The translations under genes were made by a program, and so were the position numbers. The notes under the pieces are model-generated. The model did not search any database. It saw nothing but the letters and a program-made list of their open reading frames with translations, and was not told the origin of the DNA. Positions 2,130 to 22,249 of a stretch of 22,249 nucleotides of DNA are shown here, in pieces. The DNA is from Fragilaria crotonensis (lineage: Eukaryota; Bacillariophyta; Fragilariophyceae; Fragilariales; Fragilariaceae): assembly GCA_022925895.1 (NCBI GenBank), contig JAKSYS010000818.1, positions 1 to 22,249 on the forward strand. The letters are read 5' to 3'. Numbering within the stretch: the stretch's first letter is position 1; each line of letters begins with the position of its first letter.

Positions 2130-3460
2130 GAGTGGTTTAATTATGTAGGGTTCAGTATATAGAATGTTCTTTCTTGCAGTGACTGTCACCCACCAATTTA
2201 CTTTTCAATACAGCTTCGTCAACTCAAGGGCAGCTTCCCAAGACCGTGATACGTGCATTGCTGGAGAATTCATGCATGTCAACCAGACTTAATGAGCGAC
2301 TACAAAAATGTTTTTGGAGGCCATAATGATGAATGATGTCTGCGTGTCTGTCTATGGTTTTTTGCACACGGAGTACAGCTGTACGTACGCTACTTGTACT
2401 GTACATACGAGATACTTCACTTGGGCAGGATGTAGTACACGTGCTACTGTACTACACTTTACATGTATTAGGAGGACCACCCTACTCGAGTACTCGAGTA
2501 TGGTATGCGTACTATTGTAAGATACTGTACTGAGTAGTCCAGGTACACTGTTGTACTCCGCGTCAGAGGCTACTGGTACGAGTTCAAAGAACGACCCTAC
2601 ATAAATGGCAGCGATTACAAGTGCCATTACTCTGACAAAGTAGTCTAGTAGTCGTACGTACAGTCCATAAAATACTACCTGGTACTACTCCATGTCTAAT
2701 AGCATCTCATCAGTCATCGAGTCGAATCTCGGGGGCTCGTTCCGCCCCAAGACCCAAGATAAAATCTGCTTATACGACGTTTTAAATGGCAAACGAGAGG
2801 AATCCCGGTAGTCATCGGACAATGCAAGCACTTATTTAAGACGGTACCATCAGATTTGTCCATCGTAAAATGTACTCTAGCCAGTAGTATTCGAACGTAG
2901 GGAACTCAGATTGCCATTCATTTCACTTAAACAGGTTATTCGATGAGATTCATTGTATTTGCCGAACTTCTGGAATACCTGGTTGTTAGTACATCGGAAT
3001 TCGGGAAATCCACGTTCAGCCCTGTCCTTCATACCGAGGCAGAGACGATGGAATGCACGAATGTCCACCACATAGCACCTAGTACGAGGACCTACCATCG
3101 AAGGTGCTGATTCCTATTACTCGGAGTGCTTTTCAGACCATAATCGAAACTGCGATTTTGTTCCTTTGTTCCATTTGATCATGTCGTATCTCAATAATCT
3201 AATCGTAGCTGCTACTTGTACGACATACTTCCATGTTCCATACGATCGAAGCACTAGCGAGCAACGTGACCGACATTTAAAGAGAGCGACATAATGTCGT
3301 ATGCATTTTGCGATGCATCTTCTGTCTTGTCGTCGGTGGACATGGTATGCAGTGTATGTGATTGATGGAGTTTGTGACGAGGTAACACCGAAATCACGGA
3401 TAGAATCTATAAGCGTCATCGAGGGGAGTGAGCTTGACCTTTTTCCATTACAGCTGCCCC
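2130..3460. other. 1.3 kb intergenic region
   Basis: No gene recognised. It contains the 3' end of the R3H-SUZ transcript, a GTAC-rich island at about 2379-2690 and an 18-nt perfect palindrome at 2483-2500. Open frames on the minus strand (for example 2877-3098 and 3117-3581) have no recognisable composition or motif and look fortuitous. Confidence 0.5.
2379..2690. promoter_or_regulatory. GTAC-rich island 1
   Basis: Sixteen GTAC tetramers occur in about 320 bp, where about one is expected by chance. They are dispersed rather than in tandem and separated by CT/AC-rich spacers. An 18-nt palindrome, TACTCGAGTACTCGAGTA, sits at 2483-2500. It lies downstream of the R3H-SUZ gene and about 0.8 kb upstream of the next gene. 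Function is inferred only from the recurrence of such islands near gene starts. Confidence 0.4.
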
Positions 3461-4009
3461 ATGATGTTGTCGAGAAAAGTGTCGTTTCCTGATGATGACC
3501 ATCTGGCTGTTTGCCTCTCGGGCATTCATTTCTCATCCGAGTTTGACGAGATGCAACAGGAAGGACTGTGGTACTCGGCAAACGATTTTGGGGCTTTCAG
3601 ATGTAATTCGCGAATAGTTGCGAGTGAATGCAAGATGCGAGGAATCGGAAACTTTCTGGCGTCCGCCAATGCAGGTTCTGGAGAATCATTTGAATTGTTG
3701 GTACAATGGTCAAAATACCACCATTCTACTCGAGGGCTGGAGCGACTTTGCAACCCACGTCACGGATCCAATCGAGCGAGACAGCGAAGGGATTGCATCC
3801 GCAGCGTTCTTATGGCCCAAGAGGTTCTACGTCAGCACACTGGAATCCACGAGGACATCAAGTGCTTAATTGTTGCAAAGGTGTCGGCGAAATACTCGGA
3901 AAACGCACGCTGGTTTGCCTCAAGGATGGGGCTTGCGGATGCATGTGCCGTTCCAACACCCCGTTCTCCGACTTCGCAAAATTTCCTGGTCACATTCCGG
4001 GATGAGTAG
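3461..4009 (+). CDS. Uncharacterised diatom-type protein (RGLE motif family)
   Basis: Single-exon ORF of 182 aa from the tandem ATGs at 3461/3464. The open frame extends upstream only through a GTG. The layout is one I associate with a large uncharacterised family in diatoms: an RKVSF block near residue 5, an acidic stretch, LWYSANDFGAFR at about 36-47, RGLE at 91-94, a basic run, then a helical segment with VLMAQEVLRQ and IAK/YSE/A...G.ADA-like positions to about 162. No catalytic motif, signal peptide or membrane segment is visible. A pyrimidine-rich stretch and TTACAG lie just before the ATG, so an upstream exon cannot be excluded. Function unknown. Confidence 0.65.
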   Translation: MMLSRKVSFPDDDHLAVCLSGIHFSSEFDEMQQEGLWYSANDFGAFRCNSRIVASECKMRGIGNFLASANAGSGESFELLVQWSKYHHSTRGLERLCNPRHGSNRARQRRDCIRSVLMAQEVLRQHTGIHEDIKCLIVAKVSAKYSENARWFASRMGLADACAVPTPRSPTSQNFLVTFRDE

Positions 4010-4798
4010 AAGGCCAGCGTATTAGCTGGTCGTGTTTATTTCAGGGTCTCGTCTAAGCGACTGCCCGCACGCATATAATTAATGCTGGATCCGATTTGGG
4101 ATGGGTTCGGCAGCAGAGGTCTTGAATTACAAGTAACCCTATGATCCATCGGAGATGCTTGTTGAATCATTTGATACAGTAATACCCACGCGTTTTACAT
4201 CTAGATTCAAGGCCACCAAATCGTGCTTTCTTATATCTGAAATATATTGTTGACGCATTCAACGAGTCCAAACAAGGGCAGTCTACGTTGGTGCGTCCGA
4301 TGCGCGAGTTTTCGGTCATTTGTTGACACAATCAGCTGATTCTGGGGACAGATGCGCCAAAGATGCCCCCCTCAGGCCTCACTCAGGGATGAATCTCAGA
4401 GCTCGACAATCACTGTCTGTGATAATTATAAAGTTATAGGGTAGGAAGATTACTGCATGTTGCTTCGTCGTTCCAATACTGAACAAGGTAGTACTGTAGT
4501 ACTCGTTACTGGTACAGGTTCTGCTATCTGCCAGCAGGGTCCGTCCAATCTTCACGACTAATTCACGCAAGTAGCAAGTACAATGTACTGGTACGTAGTG
4601 AGTAGTGAGTAGTAGACGGTACTTCTCTACCGGTACTTTTGCCGTTTGTCAGTACTGGAAGTGGTACAAGTACTGTACTCGGGACTCGGGACTCAGGAGT
4701 GAGGGGTGCGGGAGGTGGGAGAGGAGCTTCGAGAAACGCGTTTTACAGTTTTCTGGGCTTTCTTGCCAAACCAAGCTTCGACACGACGACCCTCGTTT
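4010..4798. other. Intergenic region upstream of the Rossmann-like gene
   Basis: No gene recognised in this 0.8 kb. The last 310 bp carry a GTAC-rich island (about 4490-4680) and short direct repeats (GTAGTGA units near 4596-4612, GGGACTC units near 4681-4696) immediately before the downstream start codon. Confidence 0.5.
4490..4680. promoter_or_regulatory. GTAC-rich island 2
   Basis: Twelve GTAC tetramers in about 190 bp, ending roughly 120 bp upstream of the ATG at 4799. No TATA-like element was identified with confidence. Confidence 0.45.
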
Positions 4799-5995
4799 AT
4801 GATTCGACGACACAATTCCGATCTACATGCGAACTATGCATATATTCCCGATCCTTTCATGCGGACAAGGCACCGCCGCTTGTGGCTGTCGAGAATCATG
4901 ATGATGCTGGACTCATGTCTTATCTACCAAGCACGAGCGTTCTTCCCTGTCGTAGCACAACATGCAAGCAATGGCGGTTCGTTTCGGTCGTCGTTGCGGC
5001 GCAACATGACCCCGTTCACCCCCGTACTCGCCCACCAACGACGTCGACTGCTGTCCAGCAGCAGGAGCATTACCAGCAGCATAAGTGCTCATGCGAACGA
5101 AGACAACGGTGATACATCAATCCGGAAGAATGAGAACATTATCGACAAACAGAATGCAAAACGAAATCATGTGATGAGTCGTCAGCTAAAACGCGAAGAT
5201 CGCATCTCGTTCCTTGAATATTCACGGAAAAACGGCGTTGAGTTGTCAATTCCAGAGCAAAAGGAGTTACAAGGACTCCTGTCTACCAACAGTGATGATA
5301 GTTCTGATACAGACATCAGTAACTTTGTGGAACAGTATTCATCCCTCGGCTTTTCAGAAGAGCACGTAGCCTTCAAGGCAACCCACAATCAAGTTTTTGC
5401 ACGCCTCATTTCATACTGTCAATCCAAACATGCTGATCGAACCATCAACGTCTTTTACCTCGACGGTCCTTGCGGTGGAACAACTGAGGCACTGTTGATG
5501 AGTTCCAATTCTTCTCCCTCCACAACAGCACGGTTCATTGAGCCCTATCAGTGCTATACTGCCAACCGACATGCATCAACGTGTCGCGCACTGCAACAAC
5601 GGTTCCCAGCCGTTCACGTCCAACATGCATCAGCTGAGGATGCACTGCTACAGACAAGCGTACCATTTCATGCGTTCTACTTTGATGCATGTGGTGGTCA
5701 CGTGCCGATGATTGTCGATATGATGCGGGCGGCACTCGTGCGGAAACAAGGTGAAACTGTCTTGTCATGGCAACCGCCTGTGGCCATGGGATTCTCTATT
5801 CTTGGTGGTGGTCGAGATTGTGTCGACAAGGAACAAGAGGTAATACAGGCGTTGGTGCAAATGGTGAAGCCCATGAAATGTAGAGTTGCTCGAGTTGGTG
5901 ACGATCCAGAAATGTATGGGATAGACGATGTAGGTACCCTAGTCAAGGTTGAGTCCTTGACCATGACCACGTGGGTAATGATAGAACGCGACTAG
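4799..5995 (+). CDS. Uncharacterised protein with a Rossmann/methyltransferase-like core, probable organelle leader
   Basis: ORF of 398 aa from the first in-frame ATG at 4799. Other possible starts are ATGs at 4898 and 5006. From the 5006 start the N-terminus is Arg/Ser-rich and lacks acidic residues (QRRRLLSSSRSITSS), like a mitochondrial presequence. The 4898 start gives a short hydrophobic stretch ending in QARAFFP, which could be read as a plastid leader. The C-terminal half suggests an alternating beta/alpha fold: NVFYLDGPCGGTTEALL, then a strand ending in EP followed by a helix with a basic residue pattern, then HVQHASAEDAL, then FHAFYFDACGG. That order matches motifs I, II, III and IV of class I SAM-dependent methyltransferases. 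The first loop is DGPCGG rather than the usual GxGxG, so the fold call is tentative and the substrate unknown. It is convergent with the proteasome gene, with a 108 bp spacer. Confidence 0.7.
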   Translation: MIRRHNSDLHANYAYIPDPFMRTRHRRLWLSRIMMMLDSCLIYQARAFFPVVAQHASNGGSFRSSLRRNMTPFTPVLAHQRRRLLSSSRSITSSISAHANEDNGDTSIRKNENIIDKQNAKRNHVMSRQLKREDRISFLEYSRKNGVELSIPEQKELQGLLSTNSDDSSDTDISNFVEQYSSLGFSEEHVAFKATHNQVFARLISYCQSKHADRTINVFYLDGPCGGTTEALLMSSNSSPSTTARFIEPYQCYTANRHASTCRALQQRFPAVHVQHASAEDALLQTSVPFHAFYFDACGGHVPMIVDMMRAALVRKQGETVLSWQPPVAMGFSILGGGRDCVDKEQEVIQALVQMVKPMKCRVARVGDDPEMYGIDDVGTLVKVESLTMTTWVMIERD

Positions 5996-6103
5996 GGACA
6001 CCACAATGCCAGTCACAGAGGGCTGCAGAACAATTACATGCATGATACTCTCAAACTATTGATCGGCAGACACATCTCATCCCTGCTGATTGTCTAGCCT
6101 ATT

Positions 6104-7014
6104 CTATTCCTCTCCGGAAGCGCCAGCACGTTTCTCCTCCTGTTCCTGTTCAATTTCCTTGACGACAGTCTCGATTTCGCTTTCTTCGAGCATTGCTTTC
6201 TTTCCTCCACGTCGCACTACACAAATTTCCATTGTCTTGGCACCACTGTCCACAACTTCCAAAAGAGCCTGAATGGCCAATCGTACGCATTGCGACTCCT
6301 CCATTCCCTCGGAATACTGCTTTTCCAAAAACTCCCTTAACGACTTGGCATTCCGCCCAGCAATGACTTGCGCCTTCCATCTGGAATGCGTTCCCGCCGG
6401 ATCTGTCTGATACAATTCCGGAACTCCATTTTCTTCATTCGTCCCGCAGAAAAGAGATGCAATTCCAAATGGTCGGACACCTCCGCGTTGGGTGTACTGT
6501 TGCTGCGTCCTGGCCAAGTATCGTGCCAGGTAGTCAATCGATGGAGCATCCTCCATGGTGAGACGGTAGGATTGGGCCTCCCAGACGGATCTTTTGGATC
6601 AACACACGAGCGTCAGCCGTCAGACCCGCAAAGGCCAAGACGGAACGATCGTCAATCGAAACAATCTTGCGGATCGTACGGGCTTCTTGGAGTCTTTAAT
6701 TTTTTAAATTGTAAAAATGTGTATTGGATAGACATGTTAGGAATTGTGTCCTGATTAACAACATGAAGACAAGATGGAAATCCAGACCTCTACAATGACA
6801 TGACAAACAAATGCCACAACAGAGGACTGGTAGAAAAAACACATGTCTGTCATACTTACTTGGCAAGAGCGCGACGCTCCACAGCAAGGACAACGCAGTC
6901 CTTTCCTTTAATCCCAACGGCAGTACTCCCCCGTCGGACCGCCTCCATGGCGTATTCTACTTGAAACAAGTGACCATCAGGAGAAAAGACGGTGATGGCA
7001 CGATCGTACGACAT
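6104..7014 (-). CDS. PSMA7: 20S proteasome subunit alpha type-7 (alpha-4), two exons, with a 1-nt frame break
   Basis: Structural subunit of the alpha ring of the 20S proteasome. Exon 1 (7014-6860) encodes the canonical alpha N-terminus [20 protein letters not shown]. The intron spans 6859-6694 (166 nt, GTAAGT...AAAG), and the splice restores [11 protein letters not shown] as in family members. Exon 2 (6693-6104) carries [36 protein letters not shown] and [13 protein letters not shown]. The exon 2 reading frame breaks at the GGG on the minus strand at 6582-6580. Before it the frame reads ...LIQKIRL, after it EAQSYRL, and the first frame meets a TGA near 6533. The spliced coding length is 745 nt. 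Without one base it is 744 nt, or 247 aa, close to the usual ~248. The identity is certain, and only the intactness of the frame is in doubt. Parts of the proteasome alpha-7 sequence occur in all eukaryotes, so a knocked-out single copy would be surprising. Confidence 0.94.
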
Positions 7015-7850
7015 GGTTACAATCAATGGCTTCGTCCAGATTAAATTTGTACGATGCTGAAGGGTGCAGGATCTTTCCATGCGGTTCGACCTGATTCATC
7101 GCGAGAGCAACTGGAGTGCTACGAGCAACGTATTGTACCAACGTACAAGTACCCGTACTCCAGTAGTACTACCAGGACTGTACCAGTAGTATAGTCCTAC
7201 AAGTACAGTTCGATTTGTGTTGATTGGAATTCGCTACTGTATGACATACATCCTGTATCATAGTTCCACTACTGTAGTCAGAAGCACTCCGTACATACTC
7301 GTATTCCAGTACTCTACAGCTCTACAGTACTCCCTGCTACTGCTATACAAGGACTACTACTACCAAGTAACAGTCCTCGAGCGCAGTATAGTTGTAGTGG
7401 CCGAGCAGTCATGGGACGAAAACGCAAACCTCTCTATCCATTCCTATTTCATACTCCAGTCTATCCTTCTAAGTTCACTGTGACCCGCATGCAAATTTAG
7501 CAAGTTAGCACAGTACCCCTATGGCACCTCAGTCTTCATGACATTTTGGTCAACCATTCGTCTTGAACTCTGGACGTTCATACCGGAGTTGGCCAGTCAT
7601 GTTAACGTGCTTTTAAATACCAAGGCGAACCGCCCGGCGAACGCCAGCGATCAATGCCGAGGCGTACTGTTAGAACCCTTGATCACCAAAAGGAATGTTG
7701 GGTCGATGTCGCGTCAACATCCTTACTTGCATTGGCACACACGCGTACGTTGTCTGTCGAGGTTCTAGTCGCAGAGAAAAAAGCTTGTTTCCAAGCGTGA
7801 TGTGCGACCAGATCCAGCAGCAATGAATCTCAAGCTACCAGTAGTCGGTA
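7015..7850. other. Intergenic region between proteasome alpha-7 and the isochorismatase-TTL gene
   Basis: The promoter side of the proteasome gene holds a GTAC-rich island (about 7136-7330). The rest shows no gene. A 29-codon frame at 7410 beginning MGRKRK and the longer frames at 7217-7483 and 7538-7768 lack any recognisable motif. Confidence 0.5.
7136..7330. promoter_or_regulatory. GTAC-rich island 3
   Basis: Ten GTAC tetramers in about 195 bp, beginning about 120 bp upstream of the proteasome alpha-7 start codon on the minus strand. Confidence 0.45.
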
Positions 7851-9607
7851 TCACTTGGTCAATGAGCCGGAGTAAGAAAAGGTACTTAGCGCGTCCCAGC
7901 CATCATCCTTGGAAGGCTTTTGGTTGATAGCGAGCGAGAGGGCACCCCGAATCATGTCATGGTCATTAATGATTCTAGCATCATTTTTGTCGAATTCTCG
8001 ATAGCGTCGATGGTATTCTACCAGCCCCTTGATTGTCAAGTCCTGGTTGTGAAGAGGATCAAACAGGACAGGAGTGAAGTTGAATTCTAGCAACCAGGCC
8101 CGTCCCGACTCGTCGATCATAAAGTCAGCTGAAAACAGCTCAAACTGCTTTTGATTCGGTCGAGGCAGTAGTTTCCTTTGTTCTACAGCACGGCCGACGA
8201 CGGCTACCATGATTTGTTGGCAAGATTCATAGGCAGTCGGCCATCCAGACCAAACGTCGCAGTGCTCCCGGTGCTTTAATTGCAAATCACGGAGAATAGT
8301 AACTTGTGTGTCTCGGCTTGTATCGGTGGGGCTCCAGGGGTGAGGCGCAATGGAGAGAAAAGGGTGTCGATGGGTAAACAGATCCCACGTGGCGTTTTCA
8401 CCTCCAGCAGAACACTGCAAGTAGGCGTATTGCTTCAAATGACACTTGTGGCCATCAACAGTCAACAGCGGATTTGACACATGGGGCTGAACCACATATC
8501 GTCCATCAGGAAGAGCAGCCTCTAGGCATTCTGCTGCTGAAAGGAACGCTTGAACGGCACGCCCTCCATTTTTATCCGTCTCCTTGAGGAACCACAAACG
8601 CGGTGTGGCATCTGAGTTTGGCTCGTCATCCACCCATTTCCCAAATTCCAAGCGATACGTTTTTGGCATGAATTCGTTGGAAAGTTGGACAACCTTTTCT
8701 TTTTCATCCAGCCACTCCCTACCTTTAGAAACATGCTAATGCGACTGAACTGCGGTTCGTCGCTCAAATCCACGATGCGTTTGCCCAATGGACACGAATA
8801 CCGTTTCCCGGTTAGAGGTTCGTCGTACCATGGTTGCGTCGGAAACTGTTGCCAGTTCTCCGTCAAGTGTCCGAGATATAGAGACGCATGTCCGCCACGA
8901 CCACAGAAGCTATACAGTTGCAGAGACTTCTTGCGGCCATCGTTGGAACCGTCCTCATCGTTCTGGTATTTGTATTGGTCCAAACCGACCGCGACGTCAA
9001 TGAGTTCAGCAAGTGTGACTACAGAACCATAAACAGGAATCAAATGGTCCATGACGGCATCGCATCGTTTCTCGTCATCATCTTGAACACAATCTCTAAC
9101 GACATAAACTGCTATCCCCGCATCGCTCAAGCTTTGCGTGACAGCTTGTACTGCATACCCCGCCTTGATGCCGACTACTGTGGCTTGGACCGGAGTACTT
9201 GCCGCAACTTGGTCGTTCGTCTTACAACCAAGGACTTGGTCAATCAATTCTTGTGTTGGTAAATGTTGTGGTCGCCATACCGCAGTGTCGCCTTCTTCAT
9301 ACAGCATCATTTCGGATCCAGGATATCCCTCAAGGAACCAATGAGCTGCATCGTTGCCTAATTTGGCGTTGAGTCGCTGAAAGCCACCATAGATTTTGTG
9401 ATGCGGCGGAACGCCTTGATACGATGATGGGAATCGAACCCCCATGTGTACAATCTTCCAACCAGCTCGCCGGGCAACGTCCATGCCAATTTGAATCCTA
9501 TCGATTAGCGCATCTCGTTTCGATGCTGGAACGATGGATCCCAGCAAATCAGGTTGCATGTCGCAGACAACGAGGACCTGGAGGGATGCCGTTGCTACGG
9601 AAGACAT
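7851..9607 (-). CDS. Fusion of isochorismatase-like (pseudo-enzyme) and tubulin-tyrosine-ligase-like domains, with a 1-nt frame break
   Basis: Two overlapping minus-strand frames form one gene. The N-terminal frame (ATG at 9607) is isochorismatase-like, residues ~8-210: a strand with VVCDMQPDLL (D16 is the family aspartate), then VVGIKAGYAV at ~144-153, then VVRDCVQDD. The nucleophilic Cys of the family is Ala152 here (codon GCA), and the expected lysine region reads VWRPQHLP. The second frame runs to the stop at 7851 and is TTL-type ATP-grasp: LWFLKETDKNGGRAV, YVVQPHVSNPLL..HLKQY, and ADFMIDESGRAWLLEFNFTP (metal/ATP E-x-N). TTL-family enzymes ligate amino acids to proteins such as tubulin. 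The frames join after K295 (AAG at 8725-8723). Adding one G would read FLKGREWLDEKEK, which continues naturally into the second frame and gives 585 aa. A 29-nt intron would also restore the frame but is unusually short. Substrate unknown. Confidence 0.82.
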
Positions 9608-10032
9608 TGTCTCGATTTATGGTCTGTGAGTTAGGAGTCAGGAGAGACGGAGATGATCTGGCGTCGTGCTTTCAATGGTATTTCTCCATTTATCGTGCAG
9701 TTTTGGGCAGGCGTTGCTAGTATCTCATAGCAGTTGCCGCTTGTCATAGGCTATCTGATGTGAGATGTGAGAATGACACGAACGAGGATTCGAGTGAGCT
9801 GCAGTGCAAGTACCATCTAGCTGGTACTCAGTGTATGTATGTGCCTTATGCCAGTACAAGTACTGTGTCGTTTATACGCAGGGTCAGAACAGTACTGGTA
9901 CTTGTACTAGACTGTGTCAATAATGTACTCGATGATGCGTAATAAGCGTACAGTACATCATACATCGAAGGTGGAATAAATAATATACCCGCATTACTAC
10001 AGTGAGCATGCTACACTGCAACTATCGAGGGC
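9608..10032. promoter_or_regulatory. Promoter region of the isochorismatase-TTL gene with GTAC-rich island 4
   Basis: No coding region. Ten GTAC tetramers lie between about 9809 and 9957, starting about 200 bp upstream of the ATG at 9607 (minus strand). The same spacer holds the 3' end of PGK. Confidence 0.45.
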
Positions 10033-11340
10033 TTAAGCATCCGACAATGCTGCAACTCCCGGAAGCACCTTACCCTCCAGCAACTCCAAAGAAGCTCCAC
10101 CTCCAGTGGAAATGTGGGAAACCTTGTCGCCCAAACCAGCCTGGTTAATTGCAGCCACGGAATCTCCTCCACCGACAATTGTAATGGCACCCTTCTCCAA
10201 AGTAACTTTTGCGAGCATTTCCGCAACCGTGTTTGTTCCAGCGGCGAAGTTGGACATTTCAAAGACACCCATGGGGCCGTTCCACACAATAGTGTTGCTC
10301 TTTTCAATCTCATCGCTAAACGTCTTGATCGTATCGGGACCAATGTCAAGTCCCATCCAAGCACCCGAGATCTCGTTCACCTTGGCAATCGCTGTGTTGG
10401 CGTCATTGGCAAACTTGTCGGCTAGGACCACATCGGTGGGGAGCAGAAGCTTGACTCCCTTGGCCTCTGCCTTCTTCATCAATTCACCAGCCAACTCGAC
10501 CATGTCTTCCTCTAACATGGAAGCGCCAATATCATACCCTTGAGCCTTGTAGAAAGTAAAGATCATACCTCCACCCAACAAGATAGTATCACACTTCTCC
10601 AAAAGTGACTCAATGACGGGAAGCTTGGTCGAAACCTTAGCTCCACCAATAATGGCCATCATTGGTCGTACTGGATTGTCGACTGCGCCCTTGAGGTACT
10701 TGAGTTCCTTGTCCAACAAGAAACCCGCCGCACTGTATGTCATGTGTTCCGTGACACCAGCCGTCGACGAATGCGCGCGATGAGCAGTTCCAAAGGCGTC
10801 CATGACAAAGTAGTCGGCGAGCTTTCCGAGGCCAGCCGACAGGACTGGGTCGTTCTTGGTTTCGCCAGCGTAGAAGCGAGTATTTTCGAGCAGGAGGACT
10901 TGTCCCGAAGTAGGGGCTGAGGCAGCCGCCTCAACTTCTGGTCCCATGCAGTCGTTGACTTTGGTGATGTCGACGCCCAACAGAACCTTGAGAGGTTCGA
11001 CGACAGGGGTCAAGCGACCGTTCTTTCCAGTTTCAATGATTTCTCCCTTTGGACGTCCGAAATGGGAGCAGAGGATGACATTGGCACCCTTCTCGAGGAG
11101 AAACTTGGCGGTAGGAACGATAGCTCTCAATCTAGTGTCATCAGTGACTGTTACATCGTCCTTCTTGTCGAGCGGAACGTTGAGATCGACTCGCATGAGA
11201 ACATTTTGGCCGCTGAGGTTGACTTTGGCAGCAAGACCTTCAACATTCAGCTTTTCAAGAGTGAGGGGAGACGCGTGGAAGAAACGCACACCGCGGGGGA
11301 CGGCGAAGCGGGTAGTGGAACGGGCGATGGTTGACAACAT
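10033..11340 (-). CDS. PGK: Phosphoglycerate kinase, mitochondrial isoform
   Basis: Catalyses ATP-producing transfer of phosphate from 1,3-bisphosphoglycerate to ADP. Single exon, 435 aa from the ATG at 11340. An in-frame ATG at 11397 would add 19 residues, but the shorter start gives a clean presequence. The first ~25 residues ([20 protein letters not shown]...) are rich in Arg, Ser and Thr and lack acidic residues, as in a mitochondrial targeting peptide. Core motifs are all intact: RVDLNVPL at 50-57, SHFGRPKG at 92-99, [11 protein letters not shown] at ~149-160, GGAKVSTK at 232-239, WNGPMGVFE at 353-361, GGGDS at 390-394 and STGGGASLE at 411-419. Diatoms are known to run the lower half of glycolysis in mitochondria, which fits this targeting. 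It is divergent from the ATP synthase gamma gene. A plastid copy would need a signal peptide, and none is seen. Confidence 0.97.
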
Positions 11341-11782
11341 GATGGGGATTCGAAGAGTACAGCGATCGTCAATGTCACACCGCAAATTATGTATCATATA
11401 TGATACACGGGATGATGATTTCAGTATGATTTCAAGTATTTCTCGCTTCGCAGATCACAAATCGAGTGATGCAGGCTGCGGGCGATAGCAAACCGACCAG
11501 TGGTATTGTGCAGGAAGTAAGTCGTCACTTGCATACGTCAGCAGTCAGCATGGGAAGTCCTGAAATTTAACGGCGAGCTGGCAACAACCACTGCCGAATC
11601 TTGTGCCGACATGACCAAAATCGGATACTGATAATACGAACTCTCAGACAGAAAAGCATACAGATAAATCTGGCATCCCGTTTTACACCCGACCGCATGT
11701 CGTCGCTTCCCGACCAAAAGATGCACATCTTGCATCTTGAACGTATCGTGCTCGTGTAACACTCCCCTTCATCTCAATTAAA
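11341..11782. promoter_or_regulatory. Divergent promoter region of PGK and ATP synthase gamma
   Basis: This 442 bp spacer lies between the divergent start codons of two mitochondrial energy genes and has the layout of a bidirectional promoter. It has only one GTAC, unlike the upstream regions of the neighbouring genes. No specific factor sites were recognised. Small open frames on the minus strand (11538-11762, 11683-11925) look fortuitous, and the second overlaps exon 1 of the gamma gene. Confidence 0.5.
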
Positions 11783-12948
11783 ATGTCTTCTCTTCGAGTA
11801 ATTGCGGCGAAAACCGCCCCTCGTGTTACACCAATGTATGTGAACTGCGATGCAGTCGTTGTTGCTGCGTTCAAATTCGGGAAGAGATGCATCATCGCCA
11901 CAACACGTTGATCGGCGATTTTCACAATGATATGGTTTCTGATTGGTAGGATTCCAGATTCCGAATCGAAATTACATCCCTGTACCGTGTACTGACTACT
12001 GGCATACCAGAGCTCGTCTCACTTTATCTCCTCATTCATAATTCATACCATCACAGGATGCCCACATTATCATTCCAATCGCAACAGACTCGTAACATGG
12101 CCACTGAGAAGCAAATTGCCATGCAAATCAACTCTACCAAGAATATTAGAAAGATTACCGCTTCCATGAAGATGGTATCTGCTGCCAAGTTGAAGGGTGA
12201 TGAGAAAAGAATGAACGTTGCTCGCCCTTTTAACGCTTGGTCGTCGGCACTTGTCCCAGAGCCTCAAACAATTGAGTTCGCCACCTTTGAGGAGTTGCCT
12301 CAGAGATGCCTCATTGTTCCGTTCACGTCTGAGAGAGGACTTTGTGGAGGTATCAACGGTTTTATCTCACGCGGTGTCAAGGTTTGCGTCAATGCTCTCA
12401 CCAAACAGGGCAAAGAAAGCGATATTGTCGTGATTGGCGAGAAGGGTCGCAGTCAGTTGCGCCGACTCTTTGCGGACAAGATTGTCCGTTCTGCCACCGA
12501 TGTTGTTGCCCCAGGAACGTTCGCCCTTGCTGCCGGACTTGCCAACGAAGTTATGACCGCCTACAAGGCCAAGGAGTATGATGCCATTGTCTTGATTTAC
12601 AACCACTACGTCAACCCCGCTGTTTACCAGCAATATTACAAAGTCATCGGCGAACTCGCCGATGAAGGCGAGGAGGGAGAGCCATTGATGGAGTACGAAT
12701 TTGAAGACAAGAAGGAGGTCATGTCAGACATTTTCGAGTACATGATTGCGACACAAATTTATGCCACTTTCATGGATGCTGCAGCCGCCGAGCAGGCTGC
12801 CCGCATGGCTGCCATGGAGAACGCCACCAAGAACGCCGGCGAGATGATTGATGCCTTGACCCTCAAGTACAATCGAGCTCGTCAAACCCGTATTACCACG
12901 GAGCTCATTGAGATTATCTCCGGAGCGTCTGCTCTTGAAGACAAGTAA
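11783..12948 (+). CDS. ATPC: Mitochondrial F1-ATP synthase gamma subunit, two exons
   Basis: Central rotor stalk of mitochondrial F1Fo ATP synthase. Exon 1 is 11783-11835 and encodes MSSLRVIAAKTAPRVTP plus two bases of an ATG codon. The intron is 11836-12056 (221 nt, GTATGTG...TCACAG). Exon 2 is 12057-12948. The spliced product is 314 aa and in frame. Conserved parts: the N-terminal helix with STKNIRKITASMKMVSAAKL at ~44-63, the SERGLCGGIN loop, and the C-terminal helix with NAGEMIDALTLKYNRARQ..IT.EL.EIISGASAL, which inserts into the alpha3beta3 hexamer. The regulatory insertion of the plastid gamma subunit is missing, so this is the mitochondrial form. The ATG at 12058 would begin a 296-aa frame, but exon 1 with Arg/Lys/Ala composition and good splice sites gives a proper presequence. 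The intron sits inside the presequence, just before the mature protein. Confidence 0.95.
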
Positions 12949-13308
12949 TTTTTATGAAAATACTGGAACTAAGGAAATTATTGTGATATTCCAGATAGCT
13001 TTTTCCTGCAGATTCTTGCTTTGCCATGCTAGAGTTTGCTGGCGAGAAATGGTTCGTTTATGTTGTGCCCTTGCTATTGAAATCATCGCTTTCCCCTATA
13101 AAAAAACAGAAAAAACAAACATAAACTTGATATCCTTATTAGATGCGGTGTCGTATGTAAGTGTGTCCCTTTTAAATTTCACATCGTTCCTGATTGCTGC
13201 GTAGCAAACACATCGCAGCCTAAAGAGTGCTGAAAAACCGCGTCGTCTACTATAGTAGCACTCGTCAAGATACACGGCGCTGCTCCGCCGCGTTTGGATA
13301 CGTTAGAT
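12949..13308. other. Convergent 3'-3' spacer between ATP synthase gamma and HDR
   Basis: This 360 bp spacer between two stop codons has no gene. It contains A-rich stretches (about 13098-13122) and a 12-nt palindrome CTACTATAGTAG at about 13246-13257, possibly part of transcript 3' ends. There is no GTAC tetramer in it. Confidence 0.5.
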
Positions 13309-14940
13309 TTATGCACTCAACTTCTTCAGCATGAATATGCTGCTCAACGAATCCTGCACTGCCGCATCCGGGGTGGACGCACCCGACGTGACTCCCATGA
13401 CCACATCCTTGGACATGTCCAGGATGAAGGGTTCCGTCACGATTTGGCCATCCACGGTTCGGTGCGTGATGGTGTTGTCGGCTTTAATGCAGTCACCTCG
13501 GTTAATGTGAAAGGCACGAATTCCCGCGTGGACGGGGATCTCTAGCAAATGGGCCGTGTTTGAGGAATCCCATCCGCCAATCACAAGGATAAAGTCCAAT
13601 CCCAAGGTTGACGCGTTTTCTACCAATTCGTGAATTGCGTCTTGTCGTTCCTGATCGGCAAGTAGAGACAAGTATGAGTTGGCGATGCTGATGTGTGCAA
13701 CAGAGACGCTCACCGTGTTTGTCCTCGTATTTACAAAGGTTGGGTACGGTACATACCTGGGTCGCATCACAGATGGTATCGAACTCAACATAATGGCTTT
13801 GGGCATCCACAGGTCCATACTTTTTCATCATAGTCTTTTGAAGCAACTGCCCGATCGCACGGGTCTCCTTCTTATACATGGTGGTTTGATTGGCAAGACC
13901 TAGCTTTTGAAGGTGAATATCGGGATCAAACCCAGCACTGTGAGCACCAGCAAAGTGTTTCATGAAGGCCTCCTTATCACCTCCATTCAAAATATAATCA
14001 GCAACCATTTCTGCTTCCTTCATGTTCTTGACACAAATGTAATCCTCACAGAAGGATGTTGTCGCGACAGTCTCTTCGTGACTGTATTTTCCGTGAATAA
14101 TGCTGGTGAGTCCCTTCTTTTGGTGCATGTCTACGGTATTCCAGACTTTGGATACCCAGGGGCAGGTGGTGTCGACGACTTCGACGTTCTTTTATTGAGT
14201 TGAGAAACATACGTTAGCTCTTATATTGGGGAGGGACACATACATTCGAGTTTCTTACCTTCTTATCCAACATATCCATTTCTTCAAAGGATGCTCCAAA
14301 CGCAGGAAGAATGACGACATCGCCTTCACCGATGGTGGAGAAGTCTTTTCCGCTTCCTGTCTTTTGAATGAAATTGACATTCATGGCCAAGAGATTGTCA
14401 TTGACTTCTGGATTGTGAATGAGTTCGTTTGTAATATGAACCTTCTTGCCAGGAAAGTGTTCGACGGCCTCATAGGCCAACGCGATGGATCGTTCAACAC
14501 CCCAACAGAAACCAAAATCCTAACAATGGGTCAGGGCAATCTGTGGTGCGCGACAAATGCTTTCTCGCACACCTTTTCTATCTTACCTTGGCCAAATGAA
14601 CTTTAACTCCATCGCGTTCGACAACATAATTGCTGGATTTGAGATCCTTGACGAGTGTCGATTCGAATTGTTCTCCCATGGTCGTTTCAACTTTTTCGCG
14701 AACTTCCTTGAATCCCTGACGATGGAATTGTTCAGATTTCATGAATCGCAATCGTTCCGCCTTTTTCGATGTTTTCGTAATTTCATCTTGAGAAGCAGCA
14801 GACGTGGATGCCGACGATTGTTGCAAAACAAGGGCCGAGGAGGACGATGGAGCGCGACCGACAAAGGCGCAAGGCATAAAAGCCTCAGTAGTCGTCACGG
14901 AGGAACCGATGAGGATCGAAAGGGCAAGAGAGAGCTTCAT
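13309..14940 (-). CDS. HDR: 4-hydroxy-3-methylbut-2-enyl diphosphate reductase (LytB/IspH), plastid, four exons
   Basis: Last enzyme of the plastid MEP pathway. It reduces HMBPP to IPP and DMAPP with a [4Fe-4S] cluster. Exons: 14940-14587, 14519-14259, 14188-13757 and 13650-13309. Introns of 67, 70 and 106 nt are all GT-AG and phase 0. The spliced protein is 462 aa, matching plant/cyanobacterial HDRs. The N-terminus has a hydrophobic signal ([14 protein letters not shown]) ending TEA|FMP, followed by a Ser/Ala-rich transit peptide. This is the bipartite leader with Phe at +1 used for complex plastids. Cluster ligands: C123 (GFCWGVER), C214 (DTTCPWV) and C345 (TICDATQERQ). Acid/base Glu is E244 in a SHEE context, and the substrate phosphate motif SSN is at 378-380. 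All key residues are present, and each splice joins conserved blocks exactly. Confidence 0.97.
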
Positions 14941-15412
14941 TGCGACACTTTATTGAGCTGCTTTTGGTGGCAGTGGACGAACGAATCTTATTCTGGAGTC
15001 TGGAGCTCTGCTGGAGGACTGTAAAGATAGTAGGTGATGTGAGCTTCCACTCGGCCGATTGTTCAGGAGTTCACAGCTTCAACTGGCGAACACATGAGTG
15101 ACGATATATTCACGTAACAGGGATCTTCAAGTCCGGGTGGCCCGATCCAATCATCTTGCGGCGCCACGCGGGCACGGACGACGGTCGGACCCAGTTTGTA
15201 CCAAGAGGTCAGTGCACAGTGCACAGTACTACACAGTACCGACCGGTAGTACTCCTATCATAATACAAGTACACTCTATCTACTAGAATACTGCAGTACA
15301 AAAAGCAAACGTTTCGGTGGCTCGTAGAGATTATATGATGACACGTGTAACTTGTCACAGAGCGTTTCGATCAAAATCACCTCTTATGAAACGATTCGTC
15401 GTAGCGTCTCAT
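14941..15412. promoter_or_regulatory. HDR upstream region with GTAC-rich island 5
   Basis: No coding region seen. Six GTAC tetramers lie between about 15199 and 15299, roughly 260-360 bp upstream of the HDR start codon (minus strand). A duplicated GTGCAC unit occurs near 15212-15225. Confidence 0.4.
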
Positions 15413-16151: not shown

Positions 16152-17655
16152 GGAATTGCATCGAGATCAGCACTGTTGTTGTTGTTATTGTTCTGTGTTG
16201 TTCTGTGTTTTGCTGCACCTACTAGCTACATAGTTGATGACTCAACACCTGTGAGAAATGAGGAACAATGTTTTTCATGCATCTCATGACATTGAGGATC
16301 TCAGCTATTCCTCGTCGATAAAAGAATGAACTTGTTGAGATTTGAGATTCATGCACACCCAGAACAGCTTCAGGTGGGAGACTCCTGACACTACTGTGAT
16401 AGACAACTTGCCTTTATTCTTCAGTACGCACTGGCATCTAGACAAAGGAATATGCATATGTCAAGAGCAACAATAACTGGGGGGAATGCCAAGTGTTGGT
16501 GCATCTTTCTACCATTCATCAGCAAACTCCGACGAGTAGCTAGCTACAACCTGGAGATTCTAGGTCTACGATTCGATTACTGTCACTGACCTGTAGTATG
16601 GTGGTAGATTGGATACACGGTGACAACCGGATAATCCGTTCCTGTTATTGGTCTTGTTGTCTTGAATTGTGAGGCTATCATGCAGAATCCAAAACCAGTC
16701 AATTTGCACCAGCAGCCAAGTAATATTTCTTCCAATTCCATGAGTCAAGGTTTTTGGATGACAGGATTGCATTGCATAGAATCCAATCCTTACTATTTGT
16801 TCTCCATCGTTCGTTTTGACTCTTCACAATGCTCCCCTTTCTCATTGATGGTGTTGTCTGAATACATGGAGTTAACACTTGCATTCGTGGGACTCAATCT
16901 CGTCACATTCGTCTGGCCATTCTCCGATTTTATGTAGTACTCCAGTACAGTACAGTACAGTACAGTACAGTACAGTAGACGCATTCCGAATTGCGAGTAC
17001 ATTAAAGTTCTTTGAACCCGGTGTGATATACAGCTGTTTTCACAATCAAATAGCCCAGCATACAACGTCGTATTATTTCTACTGGAGATCAATAATCTCT
17101 ATAGTAGACGTCAGCAAAAACAGACGACTCCGTCCGACCAAAATTCACGGACGCATCCAATTATGTATCTTGCAGCGCCGAAACCGTTTTGTTGGCCTTT
17201 GCTTATTGAGTGACTTACGCTGATCCTGATCCATGTCGCCTCGCGAAGTAGGAGGACTCTTTGCCTTCTGGTGGTACTGGTAGTACTGGAATTGTTGGAG
17301 TAGAGGTAATGTAGGCTGAACTTGTGTCCTAATGGGTCCTGTTGAACAAGGTTGCTCCATCTCCTCGGATTCAGTTGTTCTGTCTTTCTCCTCACGTATT
17401 GGGTACTACAGTAGACCGCAAAGAAACAATGCGATGGTCGCTGATGAGGAGGCGTCGCTTTTTGAGGTTTGGAATACAGTCGGCATATTGTGTTCCGATC
17501 CTGCTCTTCTGACACTGCTTTCTTTCACTGTGATTGCGACATCATGGATGCTAACGACCTCTATGAAGATATTGTGTGTGATTTCACATGTTGAGTGGAA
17601 AATAAACAGTGTTGTCACACTCCAACATAACAACGAAGCGACGAAGGAAATGTGA
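16152..17655. other. Gene-poor region
   Basis: No gene recognised. It contains a TTG-rich stretch near 16173-16210, a 12-nt palindrome GTAGCTAGCTAC at 16536-16547 and the AGTAC array at 16944-16976. Open frames here (for example 16662-16937 + and 17145-17360 -) lack motifs I can identify. Confidence 0.45.
16944..16976. repeat. AGTAC pentanucleotide tandem array
   Basis: 33 nt of perfect AGTAC repeats (about 6.6 units). The unit contains GTAC, the same tetramer that is dispersed in the upstream islands of this window, so it may be an expanded form of the same sequence bias. Confidence 0.95.
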
Positions 17656-18141
17656 GCAGAATTGTGTACAGTTGTTAGAACAAAGCCCCACTTCAAGTAT
17701 TTTCAAGGCCATTTTGAACGCATTGTGACTACTACTCGTTCCCGGTGGAAACGACAACAAGGAAGAGTGGGAGTCAACTGCTCCTGGGCAAAGAACAGTG
17801 AGACGTGTCCCAAGAAAGGACGGTGGTACTGCTGACAGGAGTGTGGTGGTTACCTTAAGAATGGCAGTCAAAATGACGCAAAGATCCTCTTCATTAGAAT
17901 TCTTTTTGTATTATGAATGCCTCGGGAAGATAACGACACTTGTTTTGAGGATAATGGATACAAGATCCACCAAGCAAGGTGCCTAAGATGCGGCTACATT
18001 CTTCTTGCTGATGAACCTGGAGTTCTCATCGCTTACCTTGTTGGTCTGGAGCAATCGGATGTGCAAGATGCGATTTGTATTTTTGTTGCTTGGGTCAAAA
18101 CAGCGGCAGAAATTTTGAAAGGAGAGAGGGGTGATGAATGA
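17656..18141 (+). pseudogene. Decayed ORF fragments with paired cysteines
   Basis: One plus-strand frame holds three protein-like segments separated by TGA at 17833-17835 and 17914-17916. Segment 1 is basic (RTKPHFKYFQGHFERIV, RSRWKRQQGR) and runs into a C-x8-C-x6-C arrangement ending GRWYC. A CG pair follows beyond the first stop. Segment 3 (ATG at 17917) encodes 74 aa with CLRCG. Cys pairs after a basic stretch occur in terminal zinc ribbons of some cut-and-paste transposases, but I cannot place this in a family. It may be noise. Confidence 0.22.
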
Positions 18142-18749
18142 TACCGAGCAGCTGTTTAAGCGACCGGATCATGGAGTCCATCTTTGCAAGGATATTGTCA
18201 AATCCACGTTCGATTTGTCGTGGGGAGGCTTGATGATTGATACTCTGTCGCGGACTTTTGATTGTTCTCGCTGAGTTTCAATGGATTCTGTACGCTGCGA
18301 GAATTGTACCACACAGCAAAACATTGTGAGCTTGAGATACCTTCGTAAAACCTGATGCTAAATTTACCTGTCGGGATTGATAATGGAAAAGCGCCGAACA
18401 ACCTGAGCAAAGAATTAATAAACACTCTGGCCTGGCTATTCTGATTCATCGACTGCTTGAAAAGGGCTTGCATCAGCCAGCTCAACGGTCATTACTATGA
18501 AGACGATGTCGTTGATGACAAGCAAAAGCCTTGACAGCAATGACAGGGAACTCATCATGCTTGCGACACAACAGCACTGTAATTCAATGTCGTCAATTTT
18601 GTTAGCTCCTGCAGAGTATCGCTGCCCTTTTGTTGAGACAGACTACTACAGCACAACTCGACCATAAAGCAAACGTAAGTAGAAATTGCAATTTAGAATT
18701 ACAACCGTAGAAACAACACTCTCACAACTTTAAACAAGTATGCATTCCG
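18142..18749. other. 3' flank of the transposase
   Basis: No gene recognised. The minus-strand frame at 18198-18485 (95 codons) shows no motif. This is where the downstream end of the transposon should lie. I compared it by eye with 22092-22249 and found no terminal inverted repeat. Confidence 0.4.
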
Positions 18750-21700
18750 TTAGGCAGCATTATCTTCATTCCCTTCCTTCAATGTTGCAAGGACAAAGCG
18801 AATGTCGAAGTCCAAAGCACAGCGATGTGTTTTAAATCGTTTCATGAGTTGTTCAATCTTCTTATAAAGGAGCTGCTGTTTTGCAGCTGCGGCAATTCCA
18901 GGCACATTTTCAGCAATCTCATCAATGTTGTTTGTCTCTCGTTCAAGGTAATAATATGTGCATATGTAGGCTCGTGCTCTTGCGGCATATTTTCTAACCC
19001 TTTCTTTTGTCAAGACTGTTGTTGGGCAAAGACACCTTGTCACAAGATTGATGAAGTTGGCTCGACCCTTTTTCTCTCGCATTGGTGTTCTCCTCATTAG
19101 TGCCTTTGCCTGTGCCCATGTGTACTCAATCCCTTCACCTGCGAATTCGCAATGAAACTTTGGCGTTAACATCACACGCAAACCAAGTTGGGAGCCCAAA
19201 AATTGCAGAGCTGTTTCTTCCGTCTTGAAGTCATAACAGTTGCCCATCAACCCTTTAAGCGAAGACGATTCGATAATATGACCAGTCAAGATATCTTTCC
19301 GTCCGCCAAGCGTATAAAATGATGTGTTGATCAATTTGTTTCCTTGTTTGTCCACATGTTCTTTGCAGTTGGACGGATCAATCCACCCTCGCTCCCATAA
19401 GACTTGGAGTAGTCCTTTTGCTTTGCCAAGCCAACCTTCGTTGACATAGACTTTCTCGTGCATCAGACTGATGCCATGGATAGCGGCAAGTTCCTTCAGC
19501 TCATTCAATGGGCGATTGGACTCTACCGTGATGCCTGATTCCTCGAGCAATGCAAATGCCAACTCATTCCGTGTTCGTGGTACATTTTTGGGGGGGCGCC
19601 CACGGTTGTCGTGATTGTCATACTTCCGTCTCGCTTGTTCTGCTGTAGCCAACCACCATGGACCCTGGTCATCGGCTTCAAAGACCATGCTCTGTTGATC
19701 GCCTACCTGCAGTATAGAATCAAATGGGCCAAGGCAGTTACTCGTTATCACAGATGAGTGCATTTTTGGTTGCTTGCCTCCAAAACTCCGCGACATACTG
19801 TCTGCATCAAGAGCCCCATCTTTTTTCCTAGCATGACCTTGACTGTGATCGAACATAAAAACAAAGTCAAATTGCGGTCGGAAAATTTTCAGGCAATCAA
19901 CAACATCTTCAAGTTGAATTGCCATATGGTAGCTATTCCAATAGCCACCTTCGAGGCCTGATCAGCAAGTGCCGGACAAAGGAGACTCCGTCAACGGCTG
20001 CTTCCGAGTATGCTTGTTGACTTCGAGTGCAGCAGTTTGGTCAATGTAGTGTGTTCCTCGTCGCAAAGCATTGACTATGGTCAGGTCTTCATCCGTCATT
20101 GGCATTCCGAATCCAGTGTCGCGAGACACAAACGCAGATACCATGAGTCCTTCACCAAGCGATTTGGGAAACAATCCTCGCTCTTGATTCGGGCCAACCC
20201 AACTCTTTGAGGGAAACAGAAATTGGGAGAAACTGATTCGTCCTGACCATAAATTTCAATCGGCCTTGAATTAGGAGGAGCACGTACACTCATCGACGCA
20301 ATTTTCCATGCATGGCATCAAACGTCTCGTTTCCACGACAACTGTAACAGTAGTCAATATGAAACTCATAGTAAACGCTGTTGCAATCTTCGTTGATATA
20401 CTTGTAGCCAAACTCAGGATTGAGATTTGCCGTTTCAAGTTCACTTAAAGCATATTGCACCCATCGTAAACATTTTGGTTCAAGCTCAGTGAGGTACTGC
20501 TGACAAAATTGCTTGCGAGATAAAACAACGTCATCACGTTCATGACCGTCAACATAATACGATTTTTGTTGTATACTATATGCGAAGCCAATTAGTTGCA
20601 TCCATCGCCAGCATGTCGGAATTCCAAATTTGTAATTCCGTGTACCTTCAGAAAAGTTCTTGTGTCAGCGATGATGCTGCTTGGTGACCTTCGTGATCGT
20701 TACACCACTGCTGGTATATACTTGGGAAGAGCTCTTCAATGCAGAATACTCGCACTAATTCAACTGTCAGAATTGACAGGTTACCTAAGCCGAATGCTGC
20801 TATTTGATCTTTTGTATCGGGATACTTCATGAAGAGAAGTGGAAAAGGGCGTTTCCCACATCTCACAATATGATCAGGGTGAAGGAATGTCCTGCACTTA
20901 CGAAACTCCAAATTCCAATCTTGAACGCTTCTAGGTTTCGTAGCTTGCACCACACCAAGTTCATTGAGCTGTCGGCAGGCTTCCCTGCAGCACTGCTTCC
21001 ACGTCCATGAATTCATGTGCCGCATGGCAGTGCGGTATGCCAAGCACAGAATGATTGCCCTGCTCTTCAAGACAAAAATGTCAGATTTAGAACAAACATT
21101 TTCAGCATCACGCCCTTGCACCACATCTCGCCAGCCATTCAGAGTTTTGCTTGCGGATTGTAGAGCGACAACATGACCCTCCAAAATGTCTAGAACATTA
21201 TTGCCACCGCCAAGAATGTCGGCTGAAAATTCCTCAAAAGATGTGCTCCCTCCACCCGCAAATAAATTCCATGCATCTCGACTATTCCAAAAACACAATG
21301 TACTGGCTTGGATGTGAAATGCTGATGCATCGTCTCGTACAAAATTGCATGGCATTCCTTCGTGGCGTTCCTCTTCTTTGTCTTGTTGCTGATGGCAATC
21401 GGAAGAACTTGTACTATTCGGAGACGAAGCCCCTGCAGGCCGCATCGTTGTGATTGATTCCAGGACACTTCTAGTGGAAGCAGAAGTCTCATAGAAATGC
21501 AGTATAGTGTCTCCTTTGCTTGGTTGTGATGACTTGTCCTGAGTGACTGCAGTCGTCGGAAGTTTATCCTTGAGCGTCATCACAGAGAAAAGTGATGAAA
21601 CGGAACTTCTTGTTATGACGATTGCTGACATCACCTCCATGGCAACCGAAATGACACTGTCTTTCCACTTGATGTCAAGAGGACAGGGATAGTCTGCCTG

Positions 21701-22072
21701 CTCAAATGGATCAGTGAGCATGTAGTAAAACTTTTTTTGGAATCTGACACGGAATATTCCAGTAGGGTTTGTCCCATCAAATCGGTCCATTGCGGGCCCA
21801 TCAAAGAATTGTTTGCTTCGAATCATTGCTGCATTTAGCATGGTAGCATCAACTCTACACACACTTTCATCAACAAGACCTGATAAAGTCAATATTTCAG
21901 CCCATGTCTCGGCTGGCAACCATTTTCTCCACACTTGCTGTCGATGATTTTTGTCATCACGAAGCCGCATGAAGGCATTTGTTATAATCACATTTTTGGG
22001 AGTTGGGAGCTTCATCCCCGAGGCCTCACTCATTTTGCTCAATCCCCAAGGCATCAAAGTAGAATATGCCAT
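18750..22072 (-). mobile_element. DNA transposon with a DDE-superfamily transposase, frame-broken
   Basis: About 3.3 kb on the minus strand encodes one long transposase (about 1,100 codons) now in three frames. Segment A (22072-20648) contains TWKQCCREACRQLNELG...VQDWNLEFRK, a helix-turn-helix-like region. Segment B (about 20660-20290) contains YYVDGHERDDV, a hallmark preceding the catalytic core in this family. Segment C (20293 to about 20230) has IYGQDES, probable first Asp at 20242-20240. Segment D (about 20230 to 18750) has GEGLMVSAFVSR, FMFDHSQGH (probable second Asp, 19850-19848), SFGGKQPKM, KGLLQVLWERGWID and HCEFAGEGIEY (probable Glu, 19127-19125). Breaks lie near 20655, 20290 and 20230, plus a compensating pair around an in-frame TGA near 19962. 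The family is common in algae and fungi. The catalytic assignment is from pattern only. It is decayed or carries consensus indels. Confidence 0.85.
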
Positions 22073-22091
22073 GAGGCAGGCCTCGGGGATG
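22013..22091. repeat. Inverted repeat at the transposase start codon
   Basis: Arms at 22013-22033 and 22071-22091 match as inverted repeats in 19 of 21 positions, including a perfect 14-nt block (CATCCCCGAGGCCT and its complement), with a 37-nt loop. The first ATG of segment A (22072-22070) lies in one arm, so a transcript could fold into a hairpin around the start codon. Confidence 0.8.
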
Positions 22092-22249
22092 CAAACATTT
22101 GAGCTTCATTGACCCGTTCATTCCCCCATGAGTGAAGCGTTGATGTTATCGCATTAATTTTTCTTCGTTTACTTAGGCTAAAAATATTTACGTTGATACA
22201 CTACCAAGGCCTACGTCGGGTCTTCAGAATATGAAAACAGCTGTACATA
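22092..22249. other. Upstream flank of the transposase, window edge
   Basis: AT-rich 158 bp with no coding region seen. It probably contains the 5' flank or terminal repeat of the transposon, which may continue beyond the window. Confidence 0.4.

Follow-up and report, generated by a model that had tools for sequence, protein, structure and literature searches.

Clusters of the tetranucleotide GTAC upstream of genes in the diatom Fragilaria crotonensis

A contig of 22,249 bp from the diatom Fragilaria crotonensis (the window, that is, the whole stretch analyzed, to which unlabelled positions refer) carries several dense clusters, or islands, of the tetranucleotide GTAC. Such clusters are real, occur genome-wide (62.1 Mb in 881 contigs) and are enriched in promoters: direct counts reveal closely spaced copies of a GTAC core lying preferentially upstream of start codons, in front of genes of mixed kinds. 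We give about even credence to the reading that each island is a promoter-proximal homotypic cluster, built from a short cis-regulatory site whose palindromic core is GTAC and which many promoters share.

GTAC islands in the window and in the genome

The window contains 126 GTAC, against 52 expected under a first-order Markov model built from its dinucleotides. As in a homotypic cluster, many copies crowd into a few hundred bp, with up to 12 in one 200-bp segment, whereas none of 200 Markov simulations exceeded 5, and the other 15 palindromic tetramers reach maxima of 2 to 6 per 200 bp. The islands, two convergent spacers serving as negative controls and one divergent spacer are the following.

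2373–2685, no strand: island 1, 16 GTAC, starting 243 bp past the stop of the SUZ-domain open reading frame (ORF)
4491–4678, no strand: island 2, 12 GTAC, upstream of a plus-strand gene starting near 4800
7135–7330, no strand: island 3, 10 GTAC, upstream of a proteasome-subunit gene on the minus strand
9810–9956, no strand: island 4, 10 GTAC, lying 202 bp in front of the start (9607) of the isochorismatase-domain gene on the minus strand
15198–15299, no strand: island 5, 6 GTAC, upstream of a LytB/IspH gene on the minus strand
16937–17000, no strand: cluster 6, 8 GTAC, including an exact (CAGTA)7 (16943–16977), adjoining the left end of a transposon
5996–6103, no strand: convergent spacer, 0 GTAC
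12949–13308, no strand: convergent spacer, 0 GTAC
11398–12057, no strand: divergent spacer between PGK and ATP synthase gamma, 2 GTAC only, a promoter region lacking an island

Islands 1 to 5 had been noticed in a first-pass annotation, which overlooked cluster 6. It gave them 16, 12, 10, 10 and 6 copies; its exact limits yield 15, 12, 9, 10 and 5, and shifting these limits by a few bases restores its counts. Its statements that a gene start lies directly downstream of four of the five islands, and that both convergent spacers are free of GTAC, were reproduced, while the PGK/gamma spacer contains two copies rather than the single one reported.

Beyond the window, we analyzed a test sample of 20 stretches of 10 kb, from contigs picked at even steps. 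ORFs in the sample were predicted from hexamer scores, with that same DNA as training set, an approach that yields long exons rather than complete gene models (and none in stretch L004), and positional profiles are anchored on start codons and stops alone. GTAC is also carried by satellites with 72–73-bp units in L004 and L014. These were left unmasked in the start and stop density profile, the comparison of coding and noncoding density, the island finder and the flank-coupling test, and were masked for TA-spacer words, TACWGTA context (W, A or T), pair spacing, spacer classes, DNA far from GTAC, 700-bp flanks and held-out tests. The pair-spacing, spacer-class, far-from-GTAC, 700-bp, held-out and order-2 spacer-word tests additionally exclude positions 1–1,700 of L014 altogether.

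Three GTACs separated by gaps of 0–12 bases occur at 26,221 places in the genome, compared with 4,001 for the reversed word. The island finder, applied to the window and the sample, identified 28 GTAC islands, six of them in the window; with other words the same procedure found 4 islands for CATG, 5 for TGCA, 2 for TCGA, 1 for AATT, 2 for GATC, 2 for ACGT, 12 for GTTG and 14 for CAAC. The density of GTAC is 6.48 per kb in noncoding and 2.62 per kb in coding DNA, the corresponding values for CATG being 5.54 and 5.19.

Upstream of 47 starts GTAC peaks at 15.8 per kb between -300 and -200, the bins of CATG ranging over 2.7–7.5 per kb; downstream of 52 stops the density of GTAC is 2.9–10.3 per kb per 100-bp bin. 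The 700-bp flanks contain a median of 6 GTAC upstream (37 starts) and 3 downstream (37 stops; Mann-Whitney p 0.018). When all 4-mers are ranked by upstream versus downstream occurrence, GTAC comes first with the window excluded (40 starts, 44 stops), and second, after GGTA, with the window included.

Placement in promoters rather than at 3' ends is also visible in the spacer classes. In clean spacers, window included, the density is 9.77 GTAC per kb in divergent (n=6), 6.92 in tandem (n=17) and 2.04 in convergent spacers (n=9; permutation p 0.0022). Without the window it is 11.1 (n=5), 5.95 (n=14) and 2.36 (n=7), respectively (p 0.011; CATG p 0.38), so the equality of convergent and divergent density that would speak against promoter association is not seen in this sample. 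The upstream concentration claimed by the first-pass annotation is real, while its statement that 3'-3' spacers lack GTAC goes too far, since the density in convergent spacers is near chance level. Across the 20 further stretches the promoter rule holds statistically and is not absolute.

Moreover, the upstream regions of eight LHC-family genes contain 68 GTAC in 6,808 bp (10.0 per kb; CATG 4.4); these genes come from the better ones of 61 exon-level matches of the chlorophyll-binding family. One chlorophyll-binding protein (L067) has as its best match 'FCPI-7' of PDB 6ly5 (E 4.6e-88), which we take to be a diatom photosystem.

According to domain matches, the window encodes SUZ-domain, isochorismatase-domain and LytB ORFs, as well as PGK, ATP synthase gamma, a proteasome subunit and a second LytB exon. 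The ORF next after island 1 (3428–4009) has no Pfam match. The SUZ-domain ORF (642–2129) is Q/H-rich toward its end and contains a (CTG)n run at 892–917.

Anatomy of the islands and possible local duplication

Copies of GTAC are set close to each other. Pairs 4–10 bp apart number 19 per spacing, versus 4.3 if they were uniformly distributed, and 8.3 per spacing at 51–75 bp; CATG pairs 4–10 bp apart are unclustered (4.1 versus 3.8). With GTAC masked, the islands are still enriched in GTA half-sites (CTAC 3.1-fold, ATAC 2.5-fold, TTAC 1.7-fold), the enrichment of words that alter the inner TA being weaker (1.1–1.6-fold), and their base composition equals that of the surroundings. A and T make up 51% of the letters at positions ±1 of GTAC in coding DNA, 61% at isolated sites and 67% at dense ones. 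The words between successive TAs are specific, namely CAG/CTG, CCGG, CAAG, CCAG, CTAG and CCAGG. Palindromic extension of GTAC into a longer site was not seen, the flanks being uncoupled. Separately, TAGCTA is over-represented in the noncoding sample (34 versus 16.5 under a maximal-order Markov model) and far from GTAC (8 versus 3.6).

The short spacing could reflect slippage or short local duplication, by which units of 3–8 bases are copied in weakly constrained upstream DNA, producing cryptically simple sequence with GTAC merely as the commonest unit. The pair excess at 4–10 bp is consistent with this, and so are the (CAGTA)7 run, short tandem units overlapping three of the 28 islands (L013, L019, L020) and several allelic indels of 2–5 bases within or beside clusters. 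However, 18 of the 28 islands overlap no tandem array, and slippage explains neither the choice of one palindromic word throughout the genome nor the loss of GTAC in convergent spacers, although these are likewise under weak constraint; we find this explanation unlikely. As for a simple microsatellite, which the first-pass annotation had denied, the denial applies to most clusters; cluster 6, with its exact (CAGTA)7, does hold one, and among the window islands only that run (16943–16977) qualifies, so microsatellite origin was rejected.

The same annotation proposed a bias of mutation or methylation confined to promoters. The GTAC excess in noncoding, mostly upstream DNA agrees with this proposal, but the masked islands do not differ from their surroundings in composition, and an effect acting on single bases would not favour a spacing of 4–10 bp, which makes such a bias most improbable.

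At L084 and L085, two copies of one gene, nearly identical together with their upstream DNA, part abruptly inside a GTAC cluster, at about alignment column 778; the split looks like a breakpoint left within an island by a rearrangement or an insertion.

A TA-flanked transposon and scar-like words

The cluster with the CAGTA run adjoins a mobile element.

17031–22243, minus strand: DNA transposon with ends CAGCTGTTTTCA and TA at both flanks, a candidate source of TACWGTA scars
18750–19925 and 20648–22072, both minus strand: transposon ORFs, no Pfam match

A second copy in the genome is 98.9% identical over 5,236 bp, and the transposon ORF family is represented by at least 109 matches genome-wide. 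The 391-residue ORF contains invariant FDHSQGHA and E..W motifs, which we assume to resemble those of mariner-type transposases; there was no Pfam and no convincing PDB match to the transposon ORF, and DDE_3 had 0 matches in the genome. The element possibly represents an undescribed branch of TA-targeting transposases. All nine related termini located elsewhere follow a TA, and eight of them a GTA; eight start with CAGCTG and one with TGGCTG. For two relatives (L051, L052) the opposite end was not recovered.

As described in an excerpt of PMC3432063, excision of Sleeping Beauty leaves TAC(A/T)GTA. The strongly enriched island word TACWGTA is spelled identically, and an element with TA flanks (a TA target duplication) and CAG/CTG ends is present in the genome. 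Transposon scars, which the first-pass annotation had not raised, fit several details: cut-and-paste elements with CAG...CTG ends that insert at TA would leave TA-CAG-TA or TA-CTG-TA at exit, and the islands would be accumulated scars. Open promoter chromatin would draw the elements, and a scar at GTAC would replace the single copy by the two of GTACWGTAC, so that islands would grow by themselves and no regulatory role would be required. We see this as a tentative possibility.

The counts of the corresponding words agree with it. TA-CAG/CTG-TA occurs 90 times versus 11.6 expected (order-1 Markov model), or 87 versus 22.0 (order 2). Genome-wide, GTACWGTAC, which contains the classical scar TACWGTA, is found 7,109 times versus 1,092 for its control (6.5-fold), while GTACSGTAC (S, C or G) hardly differs from its control (1,204 versus 1,049). 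Given the 61% of W at isolated sites and the genome-wide ratio of W to S of 5.9 to 1, flank preference accounts for this excess only partly. TACWGTA is enriched over TACSGTA, and in 24 of 82 cases it stands without GTAC at either side. The ends and TA flanks of the window element, the GTA before eight of the nine related termini and the position of the (CAGTA)7 cluster next to the transposon point in the same direction.

The assembly seems to include both alleles, or duplicated copies, of certain regions; in particular, L053/L054 and L055/L056 are colinear 8-kb pairs with 99.3% and 94.3% identity. For window positions 9600–12000 the genome contains no second haplotype copy, the sole other match being a 230-bp piece with 69% identity, and for L009 only repeat families were found and no second haplotype copy. 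One allelic pair differs inside an island by TA versus TACGCATA, and a second pair by TACA versus TACAGTGTA, which may be irregular scars.

However, other observations disagree with scars. At least 120 bp away from any GTAC, TACWGTA occurs once in 46,389 bp versus 2.1 expected, and the joins of irregular repair, CAGTG and CACTG, are not enriched (2 versus 1.4 each). The spacer words CCGG, CCAGG, CAAG, CCAG and CTAG, equally enriched by ratio, do not fit and would need other element families; the inverted-repeat search of the sample revealed no excess of TA-flanked pairs (10 versus 8–16 for control dinucleotides), while recovering the window element and the GGTTTCACC repeat in L014 (an earlier search of this kind had been dominated by satellite). 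Unlike in the Sleeping Beauty case, the element ORF lacks a Pfam match and no canonical scar polymorphism was found, four allelic or duplicate pairs showing no TACWGTA insertion; moreover, a strict pattern search recovers only nine termini. Since TACWGTA is not enriched far from GTAC, the sample showed no other convincing TA-flanked family and the four pairs lack such insertions, scars stay a rival explanation, though the main one.

The two ideas can be combined. Promoters might be self-amplifying landing pads of CAG-ended, TA-targeting transposons that prefer GTA(C), with each visit at GTAC making two copies out of one and the scars becoming over time a shared promoter lexicon across the genome that may now serve as binding sites; this version we consider rather doubtful.

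A repeat family whose tandem units of 72–73 bp can form hairpins is present at L009:8918-9132, L014:1-1600, L004:4608-6712 and L021–L040. It terminates in CCTAATCGGATC, followed by unlike DNA, and several copies adjoin GTAC-rich DNA. An alignment of 22 repeat-family copies, tried as a record of scars, was not decisive: small insertions are mostly tandem duplications, and one (L032) creates TACCGGTA.

Possible regulatory role and known GTAC-binding systems

If the islands are regulatory clusters, an abundant DNA-binding factor would recognize GTAC and, more weakly, the half-sites GTA/TAC; adjacent weak sites would raise its local occupancy, and the raised occupancy would keep the promoter open, while the arrays would lengthen and shorten through short local duplications. 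Here we infer binding by a protein, retention of the sites by selection and an effect of the binding.

Several observations weigh against a regulatory role or qualify the promoter link. The islands are not universal, as 10 of 37 starts have only one or two GTAC within 700 bp, similar to the two in the PGK/gamma spacer. Promoter placement is weaker when uncertain gene ends are included (8.09 GTAC per kb in divergent, 7.66 in tandem and 3.88 in convergent spacers, the last value being raised by one spacer with an uncertain gene end and 14 GTAC in 1,975 bp), and downstream DNA of the eight LHC-family genes, whatever their neighbours, is not GTAC-poor (19 in 3,208 bp, or 5.9 per kb; CATG 7.5). In one pair with 94% identity, counted together with its satellite, 86 of 100 GTAC were kept versus 83.8% of all 4-mers, hence special conservation of GTAC is not seen in that pair. 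The flanks of GTAC show no palindromic coupling (78 versus 92.8 expected, satellite included), and a plain cluster of GTAC sites needs no bias of the kind seen in GTACWGTAC over GTACSGTAC. Finally, no GTAC-binding protein was found by searches for AP2 and SBP domains, other DNA-binding families not having been searched: AP2 had 0 genome matches in six frames, where short exons may escape (the control matched in one of 14 genomes), and SBP also had 0, with the control genomes likewise silent. A dimeric factor on the palindromic core, as suggested by the first-pass annotation, could still bind here, though the uncoupled flanks and the lack of AP2 and SBP matches do not favour it.

Known systems resemble the islands in part. 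In vertebrates, CpG islands are promoter patches enriched in a short palindromic word; GTAC is likewise a short palindromic word, patchy at promoters, but it has four letters, its patches span about 100–300 bp, composition is unchanged and there is no known link to methylation. The copper response element has a GTAC core and is bound by the SBP-domain proteins CRR1 of Chlamydomonas and SPL7 of Arabidopsis, and the green lineage is stated to be the sole group with known SBP proteins (both in an excerpt of PMC6600651). As in that system, the GTAC core occurs in promoters of a photosynthetic eukaryote, but here it forms dense arrays in many promoters, not a copper regulon, and the SBP search, with its silent controls, gave no match. 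PfAP2-G of Plasmodium falciparum has the motif GTAC/GTACNC, with several copies in its own promoter, according to an excerpt of PMC7083873; the likeness is again the GTAC core at promoters, whereas the islands described here are far denser and are not tied to one programme, and the genome yielded no AP2 match. Search results for literature on diatom promoters and open chromatin contained no description of GTAC islands.

The piling up of GTAC before genes is probably a widespread regulatory signal, although transposon scars could produce a similar pattern. A word so common upstream would provide a sequence mark by which diatom promoters could be found, a protein binding it isolated and expression cassettes designed. 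If, on the other hand, the islands arose as transposon scars, a promoter-wide sequence signature would have been written by mobile DNA of which few copies remain.

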